NCBI RefSeq assembly: GCF_030413635.1
Contig: NZ_CP129235.1
Coordinates: forward strand, 1,364,001-1,428,000
DNA from: Planococcus shenhongbingii
GTDB taxonomy: Bacteria > Bacillota > Bacilli > Bacillales_A > Planococcaceae
Length of the DNA: 64,000 nt
Reading direction: 5' to 3'
Made by a program: the position numbers and the translations under genes. A model generated the notes under the pieces. The model saw only the letters and a list, made by a program, of their open reading frames with translations, was not told where the DNA came from and ran no database searches. This document shows, piece after piece, positions 11,379 through 39,641 of this stretch (position 1 is the first letter of the stretch; the number at the start of each line of letters is the position of its first letter).

Positions 11379-12233
11379 ATGGAGAAATTTCAGTTTCATG
11401 ATATGGCATTAACTTGGTTAGATGGGGGTACTACTTGGCTTGATGGAGGCACGATGTTTGGTGTGGTGCCGAAAGTTGTCTGGTCAAAAAGATATCCGGT
11501 GAACTCGGAAAATCAGATCGAGCTGCCGACACATCCAATTCTGGTGCAGTATGAAGGACACAATATCCTCATAGATAGCGGACTTGGAGAAGGCAAATTG
11601 ACTGACCGCCAAAAACGCAATCTAGGCGTGTCGTCTGAGTCGAAGCTTGAGGAGAACTTGGCGGAATTGGGACTTACGGCAAAAGATATCGATACTGTAC
11701 TGATGACGCATTTGCACGGAGACCATGCTGCAGGGTTGACAAAGCGCCAGGGAGAATCGTTTGTTTCGGCATTCCCCAATGCGAAAATACATGTTTCTGC
11801 GATAGAGTGGGATGAAATGCAGCATCCAAATATCCGTTCCCGCAACACTTACTGGAAAGAAAACTGGGAGCCGATTGCAGCACAAGTTGAAACTTTTGAA
11901 AGCGAAAAAACCTTGTTTGATGCGATCCAAATGATACATACCGGCGGACATTCCAATGGCCATAGCGTCATTAAACTGATGAGCAGCGGCGAAACCATTT
12001 TGCATATGGGCGATATTATGCCGACACATGCCCATCAAAATCCGCTTTGGGTGCTCGCGTATGATGATTACCCGATGGATTCGATCTATGCGAAAGAAAA
12101 GCTGATGAAAGAGGCGCTGGAAAACAGTTATTATTTCACCTTTTACCATGATGCCTATTACCGGGTTCTTAAATGGAGCCAGGATGGTAAAGAGATCGGT
12201 GAATCAGTAAAGTATCAGGAGAAAAAGATATAG
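11379..12233 (+). CDS. ytnP: Metallo-beta-lactamase-fold hydrolase, YtnP-like quorum-quenching lactonase
   Basis: A 284-residue MBL-fold enzyme with the zinc motif [10 protein letters not shown] (His111, His113, Asp115, His116) and a later [11 protein letters not shown]. subtilis YtnP is a lactonase implicated in quenching Streptomyces signals (family knowledge); the substrate here is unproven. The start at 11379 follows GGGAGG. Residues 12-25 read TWLDGGT twice, encoded by a near-exact 21-bp tandem repeat (about 11413-11454); this segment is TWLxGG...DGG in homologs, so it is probably sequence convergence rather than an insertion. It ends one base before the terminator. Confidence 0.87.
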
Positions 12234-12267
12234 AAAAAGGAGCCGATGACAAATCGGCTCCTTTTTT
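12233..12267 (+). terminator. ytnP terminator; left flank of repeat element A
   Basis: AAAAAGGAGCCGAT-GACA-AATCGGCTCCTTTTTT. A 35-base copy with a single mismatch recurs at 12728-12762, on the other side of the repeat element. The A and T tracts make it work in both directions. Confidence 0.93.
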
Positions 12268-12727
12268 CAGGCTGTCGAGAAACTCTCGGCAGCCTTTTCA
12301 CATTTCGCTCCAGGTGGGGCGCTTTCCGCGGACATGGCTTCAGCCGCTTCCTTTGCTCCTGCGATTACTCGTCGCAAATTGAAAAAACATTCGCTTTGCT
12401 CAGTCCAGGGTCTTCAGCTCATGTTATTTCCGCAGGAAGCGAACTGTGCAAAAGCACTTTTGCGCGGTTCGTTTGCGACGAAGCTAGCGCAGCGATGCAG
12501 GAGCACCTCTTTGCCCTTCGCCCACCTTCCGCTGCATTCAGCTCTCTATTGTCACTTTTAGAGATTCTCTGGAATAGGGAGCTGATTCGGAAAGCTCTCG
12601 AATGTTTGTACCTGCTCTCCAAATATGGAGCCAACCAGCGGAGACGCCCGCGGCAAGTGCAGCTGGTTGGCGGAATATCGGTTAAGGAAGGATCACTAAT
12701 AGAAACTTTAACTTCCTCAACAAGCTG
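12268..12727 (+). repeat. Repeat element A, bracketed by a duplicated terminator
   Basis: A 460-bp non-coding element. It begins CAGGCTGTCGAGAAACT and ends, read from the other strand, AGCTTGTTGAGGAAGTT, so the ends are imperfect inverted repeats. It contains TTTCGCTCCAGGTGGGGCG, GACGAAGCTAGCGCAGCGAT and CTGGAATAGGGAGCTGATTC modules. All are shared in the same order, inverted, with 37032-37538. The open frames in it are not supported as genes. Flanking direct repeats are copies of the host terminator. Confidence 0.85.
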
Positions 12728-12762
12728 GAAAAAGGAGCCGATGAAAAATCGGCTCCTTTTTT
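12728..12762 (-). terminator. ytzB-side terminator; right flank of repeat element A
   Basis: GGAGCCGAT-GAAA-AATCGGCTCC with A and T tracts on either side; differs from the copy at 12233-12267 only at the base equivalent to C12250. It is placed to stop transcription of the convergent minus-strand gene. Confidence 0.92.
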
Positions 12763-24867: not shown

Positions 24868-24930
24868 ATGCCTTTTCGACGAGCAGCGCACTTTCATGTT
24901 TCGAAGCTAGCGTAGCGATGCAGGTGCAAT
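24868..24930 (+). repeat. Solo copy of the element-B repeat module
   Basis: The stretch 24881-24923 (GAGCAGCGCACTTTCATGTT... through CGAAGCTAGCGTAGCGATGCAG) matches 37221-37263 inside element B with about four differences. It stands alone between aroA and ccpA. The rest of 24806-25125 shows a TTTTTGCC/GGCAAAAA hairpin (about 24943-24975) and no gene. Confidence 0.75.
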
Positions 24931-36042: not shown

Positions 36043-36095
36043 TTTGAAGTTGTAGGATAGCTTTGAGTCACCAAAAACTGAGGAGGCGTTACGGA

Positions 36096-36980
36096 ATGTC
36101 AAAAGTAGTTGGTTCTTACCATTCTGAAAATGAAGCAATCAGTGCGATTGAAGATCTTAAAAGAAAAGGGTATCGTTCTGAAGATATCTCAGTTCTCAGC
36201 AAAGACAAAAAAGAAATCGATAATGTAACAGGAGAAACCGGCACCCATGCAGGAGAAGGCGCGGCAACAGGAGCAGTAACGGGAGGTGCGCTTGGCGGCC
36301 TTGGCGGAGTCCTTGCTGGAATCGGAGCCTTGGCTATACCTGGCATTGGCCCGATCGTAGCGGCAGGCCCAATTGTGGCCGGGTTAACTGGAGCGGCAGC
36401 GGGCGCTGGCGTCGGCGGTCTTGCTGGTGGTTTGATCGGCATGGGGATTCCGGAAGATGAGGCGCAGGAATACGAAACCCAGTTTAATGAAGGCCGGATT
36501 TTAGTTTTAGTGGATGATAACAGCAGCGCAATTCTTGACCACAATGATCGTGATGCGTTCATTAGCGGCAGTGACTCGCGAACCGGCGTCACGCGTGAAA
36601 CATATATTAGCGACCAAACCGATACTAGATTAGAAAGAGATTCAATTATAAATAATGATCGCGATTCACGTCTTGGAAATGACCGGGACTCCTTTACCAG
36701 CACAAGCGGAAGAGATGCAGATATAGGCTCGACCAAAGATGCATTTACAAGTGACTCAGATTCTGGGATTACCCGCGAAACGTATACCAGTGATCGAGAT
36801 GCAGATACCGGACTGATCAGAGACAGCACTGCGTTAAATCATAATCAGGATCCATTGATCGGCAGTGAGCGCAGCACCACAACAAGAGGCGATAAAAGCT
36901 CACCATTAGGCAGTGACAGTAATGCCGATCTAGAAGATGATTTAGGCGGACCGAATAAAAGAGGTCAGGCAGGATTGTAA
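36096..36980 (+). CDS. General stress protein with YflT (GSP17M-like) domain
   Basis: A 294-residue protein. The N-terminal domain (VVGSYHSENEAISAIEDLKR, GYRSEDISVLSKD) is the heat-induced-stress YflT fold; a glycine/alanine-rich hydrophobic core follows (about 55-130; GGLGGVLAGIGALAIPGIGP). The C-terminal 130 residues are a hydrophilic Asp/Ser/Thr/Arg-rich repeat region (TRETYTSDRDAD-type units), possibly disordered. ATG at 36096 follows GAGGAGG. A perfect SigB promoter places it in the general stress regulon. Molecular role unknown. Confidence 0.85.
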   Translation: MSKVVGSYHSENEAISAIEDLKRKGYRSEDISVLSKDKKEIDNVTGETGTHAGEGAATGAVTGGALGGLGGVLAGIGALAIPGIGPIVAAGPIVAGLTGAAAGAGVGGLAGGLIGMGIPEDEAQEYETQFNEGRILVLVDDNSSAILDHNDRDAFISGSDSRTGVTRETYISDQTDTRLERDSIINNDRDSRLGNDRDSFTSTSGRDADIGSTKDAFTSDSDSGITRETYTSDRDADTGLIRDSTALNHNQDPLIGSERSTTTRGDKSSPLGSDSNADLEDDLGGPNKRGQAGL

Positions 36981-36997: not shown

Positions 36998-37031
36998 AAA
37001 ATGCGCAGCCCGATACTTGGGCTGCGCATTT
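36998..37031 (+). terminator. Stress-gene terminator; left flank of repeat element B
   Basis: AAAATGCGCAGCCC-GATACTT-GGGCTGCGCATTT. A second version with identical outer stem lies at 37539-37571 beyond the repeat element. Confidence 0.9.
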
Positions 37032-37538
37032 AGCTTGTTGAGAAAATTGAAATTTGTATTAGGTATCATCCCTTAACCGATATTCCGCCAACCAGCTGCG
37101 AAGCCATTGGCCGAAGCTACTTCGGACGATGGCTTTGCGACGAGCTTGCGCAGGAGCACATGTTTTGTGGCCGAGGTTTGTGAGGCCACGTCTTTGCGAT
37201 GAAGCAGCGAAACGATGCAGGAGCAGCGCACTTTCATGTCTCGAAGCTAACGAAGCGATGCAGAGACAGTACGGTTTTCGCCGCTGTTTGGCTTCATATC
37301 TAGAAAGCGGGTACAAACAATAGAGAGCTTCCGAATCTGCTCCCTATTCCAGAGAAACTCTAAAGGTGTCAAACGGAAGCTGAATGCAGCGGAAGGCGGC
37401 GACTCCTGTGGGAAAAGTGTGAGTCCTGAGACCCCGCAGGGAGCGGCAGCGAGCGAGGAGGCTTAGGGCCACACCCCACGGAAAGCGTCCGCCCTGGAGC
37501 GAAATGAAAGAAGAGAATAAGAGTTTCTCGACAGCCTG
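37032..37538 (-). repeat. Repeat element B, bracketed by a duplicated terminator
   Basis: A 507-bp non-coding element, the inverted homolog of 12268-12727. Its left end AGCTTGTTGAGAAAATT and its right end, CAGGCTGTCGAGAAACT on the minus strand, match the two ends of element A. TTAACCGATATTCCGCCAAC, CCCTATTCCAGAG and CTGAATGCAGCGGAAGG modules are shared. Internally it carries extra GCGACGAGC/AGCGATGCAGGAGCA units. No supported gene. Confidence 0.85.
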
Positions 37539-37571
37539 AATGCGCAGCCCGGTACCCGGGCTGCGCATTTT
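37539..37571 (-). terminator. Terminator of the cobalamin-binding gene; right flank of element B
   Basis: AATGCGCAGCCCGG-TA-CCCGGGCTGCGCATTTT, with the same outer stem as 36998-37031 but a longer stem and different loop. Confidence 0.88.
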
Positions 37572-37602: not shown

Positions 37603-38409
37603 CTATGCTTGCTTTTCAAGTATGAACTTCGGCAATTCCATGTCTTCGAACAATTCAGGATGAATTAGTTTGCCTAGACGGATTGCTCCTTCAATCAGCC
37701 GCGGAGAAGGGCGGCAATACAGCTCTTCTTTCATGATATGGATTTCTTCATAAGCGTTCATCGAATTCCAACCGGGCCTTTTCCGGACTAACTCTGGTTT
37801 TACTTTAGATGTCATAATGCCAACCCAGGCAAGAAGGATGTAATCGGGGTTCCGTTGCAATACATCTTCCCAGTCGGTTTGGAAGTTAGCCGATGGAACG
37901 TCATCAAACACATTGCGGGCCCCAGTAATCTCACTGATTTCGGTCAGCCAATTGACGCTGCCAGGCGTGAAAACGGGTTTCGGCCACCATTCCCAATAAA
38001 GTGATGGGCGGTTTTTGGCCAGTGACGAGCGGTTTTTGATTTCCCCGATGATTGAAAGAAATTCAGCGTGTACGGGTTGAGCGTCGATTCCGCATGCATT
38101 GCCTACAGCCAGCATGTCATGGCCGATTTCAGAGAGCGATTGTGGATTCAAGACCAAATGAGGAATTTTCCGTCGAACCAGCTCGTCTACGTTTTTTTCC
38201 ATCCCCGGCACACTGAGTGAGGCAAGCACCAGATCCGGCTTTAATGCTTCCAGCTCATCCATCCGAATAGACAAATCAGGTCCAAGCCTCGGCAGACTTG
38301 TCACGTGATTCGGCCAGTCAGAATAATCGTCGATCCCCACCAGTAAATGTTCCGCGCCAATGAAAGCAAGGACCTCAGTATTGCTGGGACAAATTGAAAT
38401 GATTCTCAT
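37603..38409 (-). CDS. Cobalamin-binding (BtuF-like) protein without signal peptide
   Basis: A 268-residue helical-backbone metal-receptor fold: MRIISICPSNTEVLAFIGAE, LVGIDDYSDWP, LEALKPDLVLASLSVPG and WLTEISEITGARNVFDDV. These match BtuF/FhuD-type binding proteins, but the protein starts directly at the first beta strand with no signal peptide or lipobox, so it is probably cytosolic, and no transporter genes adjoin it. The ATG at 38409 has GGAGGTG before it; the longer open frame (to 38499) lacks an SD. Corrinoid binding is inferred. Confidence 0.75.
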   Translation of the reverse strand: MRIISICPSNTEVLAFIGAEHLLVGIDDYSDWPNHVTSLPRLGPDLSIRMDELEALKPDLVLASLSVPGMEKNVDELVRRKIPHLVLNPQSLSEIGHDMLAVGNACGIDAQPVHAEFLSIIGEIKNRSSLAKNRPSLYWEWWPKPVFTPGSVNWLTEISEITGARNVFDDVPSANFQTDWEDVLQRNPDYILLAWVGIMTSKVKPELVRKRPGWNSMNAYEEIHIMKEELYCRPSPRLIEGAIRLGKLIHPELFEDMELPKFILEKQA

Positions 38410-38641
38410 GAGTTGCACCTCCGCTTTTTTACAGTTTACCATAGCGGGATTTAGAACCAAAATAGACAAGGCTTTAACATTTCTGTTAAATTGGAACATA
38501 TTGAAATAGTTGTTATGAAAGAATGCATGAGAGTGAACAATGTATTATCATTGTTAAAAGTATAACTTATCGGCAGACTGCAAAAGATCTTGGAAAGTTA
38601 AAATTCTGGATGAACGTGTGGGCTGAAGCAGGAGGAAAAGA

Positions 38642-39510: not shown

Positions 39511-39560
39511 GAAAGTGCTCCAACGCATTTTCATGTTTCGAAGTTAGCGAAGCAATACAG
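39511..39560 (+). repeat. Degenerate solo copy of the element-B module
   Basis: GTGCTCCAACGCATTTTCATG and TTTCGAAGTTAGCGAAGCAAT match the modules at 24881 and 37221 with more changes. Confidence 0.55.
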
Positions 39561-39641
39561 AAGCAGGGGGACGTTTTCTGCGTGAGACATCCCAAACCTG
39601 CAGACCGCAGTTTTCCACTTCTATCAATCATCTCGAATATC

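Follow-up and report, generated by a model that had tools for sequence, protein, structure and literature searches.

A probable IS1182-family MITE lies between two copies of a duplicated terminator hairpin in Planococcus shenhongbingii

The locus described here raises the question of how a short repeat element came to lie between two nearly identical terminator hairpins. It is part of a window of 64,000 nucleotides, the whole stretch of DNA that was analysed, from Planococcus shenhongbingii (contig NZ_CP129235.1, positions 1,364,001 to 1,428,000). Element B (37032..37538, plus strand; 507 bp) occupies the space between two convergent ORFs, one ending before the left hairpin (36063..36980, plus strand) and the other before the right hairpin (37603..38499, minus strand). 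The hairpins (37000..37031 and 37539..37570, both plus strand) are direct repeats identical at 29 of 32 positions and have in common a 12-bp outer stem, AATGCGCAGCCC/GGGCTGCGCATT. Each folds to a 14-bp stem with a TAC loop, at -23.9 kcal/mol for the left copy and -27.4 kcal/mol for the right (RNA parameters). The three differences between them amount to one two-sided change from A-T to G-C and one one-sided change from G.T to G-C, and pairing is kept in both cases. A sequence-only reading of the window had described the copies as differing in loop and inner stem, GATACTT versus GGTACC; the differences inside the stem are real, but the letters on the right are GGTACCC and the loop is the same in both.

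That reading also regarded B as an inverted homolog of a second element in the window, with the same ends, set between convergent genes and bracketed by hairpins that match each other and differ from those around its homolog. All of these points were borne out. The homolog, element A, lies on the opposite strand at 12268..12727, and the terminator hairpins on its two sides (12233..12267 and 12728..12762, both plus strand) are identical at 34 of 35 positions (row L042) and differ from the hairpin around B. The left terminal inverted repeat of B, AGCTTGTTGAGAAA (37032..37045, plus strand), has T for the leading C of the consensus left end, CAGCTTGTTGAGAAA; the right terminal inverted repeat is TTTCTCGACAGCCTG (37524..37538, plus strand). 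Inside B we found only short mechanical ORFs of at most 91 aa, and a transposase gene is absent from it. Rfam at gathering cut-offs gave zero matches over the whole window. Pieces of ~40 bp from an internal module of B (B 190-233) also occur at 24881-24923 and 39521-39561 of the window, outside A and B, and the module matches, inverted, within other element copies.

A search of the single 3.98 Mb contig with B as the query returned 124 matching pieces, which were grouped by eye into ~40 loci. The right end was found at 36 places in the genome, 13 of them beyond the 40 loci, giving 53 loci for a flank test; 17 were dropped with an end unrecognised, and 36 copies with both ends were left. Against 1260 mismatched left/right pairs, the likeness of left and right flank lay above the 99th percentile in 25 of these 36 copies and above the maximum in 19. 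In B, A and 23 other copies the direct repeat is the target stem-loop, and the hairpin sequence, as read from the flanks, varies between loci. The earlier argument that two such cases make coincidence unlikely is thus upheld across the genome, and the outcome named as fatal to it, that most copies have unrelated flanks, did not occur. Eleven copies fell below the 99th percentile, for example those at 459862 and 507240, which have good ends without a matching left hairpin. Two copies that pass, at 3929873 (L002) and 3449080 (L005), have half a hairpin on the left side. There the left flank consists only of the second arm and T-tract of the right-hand hairpin, as if repair across the hairpin had been incomplete. 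These half hairpins and the failing copies indicate that decay or faulty repair occurs too.

Relatives that lack the element at the same position provide the corresponding empty sites. At the B locus, in all three genomes that were aligned out of more found with the locus (G004, G007 and G013), the same two gene ends enclose one hairpin. For the A locus twelve genomes were searched, of which eight were aligned, three more were read by eye and G012 was left out. A single hairpin is present in seven of the eight aligned genomes (G002, G007, G013, G017, G024, G034 and G037), and five of these seven have a stem like the AAAAGGAGCC...GGCTCCTTTTT of the source genome. By eye, the eighth, G004 (L199), has a different insert of ~400 bp in this terminator, a hairpin standing on each side of it, so that terminators are re-used targets. 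Of the three genomes not aligned, one hairpin, a different one, was seen in G001, and two unlike hairpins in each of G030 and G032. The third locus, 1436811, has a single hairpin in G007, the one genome aligned; G004, G012, G013 and G024 were left unaligned there, G004 and G013 carrying other repeat material. Because the aligned relatives have a single hairpin at three loci, the double hairpin around the element is a target-site duplication. Taken together with the flank statistics, the single hairpins agree with the sequence-only reading that one mobile element sits in two different terminators, each duplicated; a double terminator in element-free relatives, which that reading had set against itself, was not seen in the aligned genomes.

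In the source genome no IS1182 transposase was detected with PF05598 (E <= 0.001) or NF033551, and the MITE copies are for that reason probably stranded, the partner having been lost from this genome. The IS1182 loci that scored best in the family and in the genus did not reveal the partner when searched for matching ends; it was located by overlaying the places of transposases on the places of the ends within the genus. The partner elements are 1532 bp long in G022 and 1660 bp long in both G036 and G001 (L175, L176 and L177). The unequal ends of the MITE, CAGCTTGTTGAGAAA and CAGGCTGTCGAGAAA, recur exactly in the elements of G022 and G036, and the G001 element has the exact right end and a diverged left end. 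Furthermore, the last 154 bp of B (B 354-507; 37385..37538, plus strand) are shared with the transposase-proximal end of the IS, with 77% identity over 155 columns to positions 1-148 of IS_G036. The IS of G022 is flanked by a duplicated hairpin (32/32), as is a relative from Bacillus testis (33/33); the G001 element lies between two copies of one hairpin, and G036:C1 between two different hairpins. In the genus-wide search for the ends, 10 of 30 loci had an end pair, two of the ten being G000 copies already counted, and 7 of the 10 had a repeat of at least 15 bp.

The partner transposase contains the domains DUF772 (PF05598, 1.9e-27) and DDE_Tnp_1_6 (PF13751, 6.4e-30). Against the IS1182 model NF033551, orfA scored 204.5 bits (3.1e-60) and orfB 238.1 bits (1.9e-70); the cut-off of 270 bits is set for the whole protein, and each half alone falls under it. 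We conclude that the partner belongs to the IS1182 family and that B itself encodes no transposase. B is short, multi-copy and bounded by terminal inverted repeats, and its 15-bp ends and tail match transposase-carrying IS1182 elements in other genomes of the same genus, as is expected of a MITE. Members of the IS1182 family have one transposase ORF in ISfinder, and the Planococcus partner departs from this rule. In all three Planococcus copies its transposase is encoded by two ORFs with a -1 frame overlap at A AAA AAG. L236 and L312, the Bacillus testis and Brevibacillus plasmid relatives, have a like -1 overlap, and other relatives have a single transposase ORF. Taken over the five elements, the split transposase and its A AAA AAG overlap suggest programmed frameshifting.

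Direct repeats of IS1182 elements range from 0 to 60 bp in ISfinder. We collected 61 transposase-carrying loci with CAG ends, of which 58 had an end pair (L086, L124 and L288 were dropped for want of one). Direct repeats of at least 15 bp were found in 52 of the 58, and 49 of these 52 were perfect; none of 3306 mismatched flank pairs reached 15 bp. Repeat length ranged from 20 to 52 bp with a median of 27 (n=51, L264 being excluded as offset). It followed hairpin length with r = 0.955, part of which arises because the repeat itself is a palindrome and hairpin length was measured on the flank ending at the junction; the two lengths were exactly equal in 41 of the 51. Pairing between the two outermost bases of the repeat was possible in 45, and in 42 the palindrome extended at least one pair past the repeat, which is centred on the hairpin and does not always end at the last possible pair. 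Not all copies represent independent lineages, since genomes and lineages are shared among them, but each is in its own target.

Among the six of the 58 without a repeat, L087, L256 and L263 have a complete hairpin on each side, the two hairpins being different, and the script's choice of end is doubtful for L090, L103 and L258. The different hairpins flanking L087, L256, L263 and the G036 element (L176) fit the outcome of recombination between two copies. Plasmids and named genomes gave 11 additional loci, among them all eight plasmid records obtained and the annotated ISBspe1; these cover Bacillaceae, Paenibacillaceae, alphaproteobacteria and gammaproteobacteria, thus both Bacillota and Pseudomonadota. 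An exact hairpin duplication of 18-28 bp was present in 10 of the 11, and L241 has similar hairpins only. In one set of 17 loci the ends were read in nine.

The outcome differs in two sister clades. Among elements with GGCTGGGACA ends, whose limits are less sure because the adjoining GA/TC may belong to the inverted repeat, none of 16 loci had hairpin-long repeats (11 of 27 had been dropped without an end pair). At the position of one such element, L303, five relatives carry a terminator hairpin, and the same feet, AAAAAGA/TCTTTTT, recur in four of the five; for a second such element, L301, a hairpin is at the site in one of four relatives and the other three are uninformative (relatives L336-L340 and L350). 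From these two insertions the GGCTGGGACA-end clade appears to replace the terminator stem-loop. Among elements with GAGGSCACTGAAAAA ends (L319-L334 and L119), 15 of 17 loci had an end pair (L322 and L330 did not), and 14 of these 15 insertions gave repeats of 6-10 bp. In 11 of the 15 the repeat is the hairpin loop, with the arms split to either side, a count that carries no mismatched-pair control and was made by script in nine (stem of at least 5 bp) and by eye in L324 and L334. The pattern is not present in L326, L327 and L328, all from G122, or in L331.

A transposase tree was built from 66 rows, reduced from 91 by removal of identical ones; L087, L234, L236 and L312 had been dropped as having no ORF of 380 aa. 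In it each type has a clade of its own, with 41 rows and support of 98/94 for the CAG-end elements, 14 rows and 100/100 for those with GGCTGGGACA ends, and 100/100 for the three rows with loop duplication; the main groups are separated by long branches, for which the tool gave a warning. The split Planococcus transposase and IS1272 stand outside this tree; ISBspe1 (L311), a relative of the partner, is inside the CAG-end clade.

Several described systems resemble the one found here in part. IS1272/TnSha1 of staphylococci is placed in the IS1182 family in PMC4923244, and in the passages of PMC5678879 and PMC4923244 that describe it IS1272 targets stem-loops or terminators without sequence preference, inserts at or in the hairpin, and deletes or replaces the stem-loop without target duplication. 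By this published description IS1272 is like the B/A element in family and in its hairpin or terminator target and unlike it in outcome: IS1272 replaces the stem-loop, whereas the B/A element keeps and duplicates it, with two hairpins where the empty sites have one. Figure 13 of PMC5678879 draws three pathways, of which b, duplication of the whole hairpin, is given there as a possibility only, the authors having observed replacement. ISBspe1, as annotated in NC_013792.1, has the ends CAGGCTGTTGAGAAA and CAGATTGTTGAGAAA and a duplicated 20-bp hairpin, and shows 52% identity to the Planococcus orfB; it differs in that one uninterrupted transposase gene is annotated. The IS1182-derived ISMac2 MITEs of Methanosarcina are likewise short, non-autonomous and present in many copies, but on one reading of the table columns in PMC3852290 they have direct repeats of 4 or 0 bp, which do not reach hairpin length. 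An extragenic palindrome is also the target of ISPpu9; as portrayed in PMC8450116 that target is a repetitive REP, whereas here the targets are unrelated terminator hairpins and are duplicated. The phrase 'duplication of the terminator' in PMC8880864 refers, where it occurs, to strain construction and is unrelated.

Among the matches listed in a search of full-text literature, only the IS1272 papers, PMC5678879 and PMC4923244, bear directly on the question; subscription reviews and ISfinder lie beyond that scope and may know hairpin-long repeats. 

We consider it very probable that B is a non-autonomous MITE of an IS1182-family IS that inserts at a terminator hairpin, the whole hairpin being duplicated by means of a transposase supplied in trans and gap repair. 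The partner transposase would act in trans on B, would recognise the hairpin either as an extruded cruciform or in single-stranded form, and would join the 3' ends of the element at the two 5' feet of the stem-loop, at the base of the rho-independent terminator hairpin. These feet would lie close together at a four-way junction, a geometry that would explain how one enzyme type gives repeats varying from 20 to 35 bp; host gap repair would then copy the whole hairpin and leave the element between two direct copies. It is from this geometry, with folding by RNA energies, that attack on a cruciform is proposed.

That B simply landed between two hairpins of a pre-existing double terminator, such as the two different hairpins seen by eye at the A locus of G030 and G032 might suggest, is highly improbable: the aligned relatives have one hairpin at B, at A (with the exception of G004) and at the third locus, and the repeats of the transposase-carrying copies are nearly always perfect and specific to the locus. 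The changes between the two B hairpins keep pairing, one of them on both sides, as correction of a palindrome or re-copying could give, and this lends something to the idea that the element brings or builds its own terminators or that one side is re-copied from the other by gene conversion. Against it, the hairpins are locus-specific and the stem at A is already present in five of seven element-free relatives. Moreover, in 18 hairpin pairs of the source genome two-sided events that keep pairing make up only 4 of 35, the script counting the remainder as 7 one-sided with pairing kept, 6 that break it and 18 unpaired. We judge this explanation very unlikely, if slightly less so than the former. 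Either gradual divergence with some selection to keep the stem or correction of the palindrome would fit this spectrum of changes. The sequence-only reading had left open whether the B copies diverged or were re-copied with error; later divergence is the simpler account, given how often the repeat is perfect in transposase-carrying copies, and re-copying is possible as well.

REP/RAYT and IS110/IS1111 elements associate with palindromes, which speaks for a single-strand HUH/Y1, REP-like or IS110-type insertion beside the hairpin. An IS1111 in a palindrome is also mentioned in a passage of PMC10969869. Yet the inverted-repeat ends of B are identical to those of a DDE IS1182 element with DUF772 and DDE_Tnp_1_6 domains; the earlier advice to look for an enzyme with matching ends led to a transposase, but of another type than the Y1/RAYT or IS110 proposed. 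The target is also duplicated on both sides, which is not usual for HUH/Y1 and IS110 routes, and of all the alternatives this one appears the least credible. A different substrate with the same outcome deserves more weight, namely a hairpin that is transiently single-stranded, for example on a lagging-strand template, in place of an extruded cruciform. The terminator stems are short, mostly 10-16 bp, and short cruciforms cost much energy to extrude; joining on both strands in a way that flanks the hairpin is nevertheless easier to draw on a cruciform, and we regard the single-stranded substrate as a tentative alternative, possible but on the doubtful side.

Returning to duplication of the whole hairpin by a structure-reading transposase, the family as a whole allows a wider statement. 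Target duplications of DDE transposons normally have a near-constant length for each enzyme; here DNA shape, rather than a fixed distance, seems to dictate how much of the target is copied. We lean, with modest confidence, towards the view that IS1182 transposases read DNA shape and that sister clades join at three points of the cruciform, so that the length of the duplication would depend on target secondary structure rather than on how far apart two active sites lie on B-form DNA. Joining at the 5' feet would duplicate the whole stem-loop, as in the CAG-end clade and the MITE; joining at the loop would duplicate only the loop, of ~8 bp, and split the arms, as in the GAGGSCACTGAAAAA-end clade; joining at the 3' feet would replace the stem-loop, as in the GGCTGGGACA-end clade and in IS1272 as published. 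These three outcomes correspond to the three pathways drawn in Figure 13 of PMC5678879, and their occurrence in three clades of one family makes that geometric model directly testable. A repeat length that varies with the stem-loop points to recognition of DNA secondary structure by the transposase, and the natural copies form a large data set on which structure recognition can be tested. Copying of the terminator may also be a means by which mobile DNA multiplies quietly: the gene on either side could keep an end signal, and this might account for the tens of copies.
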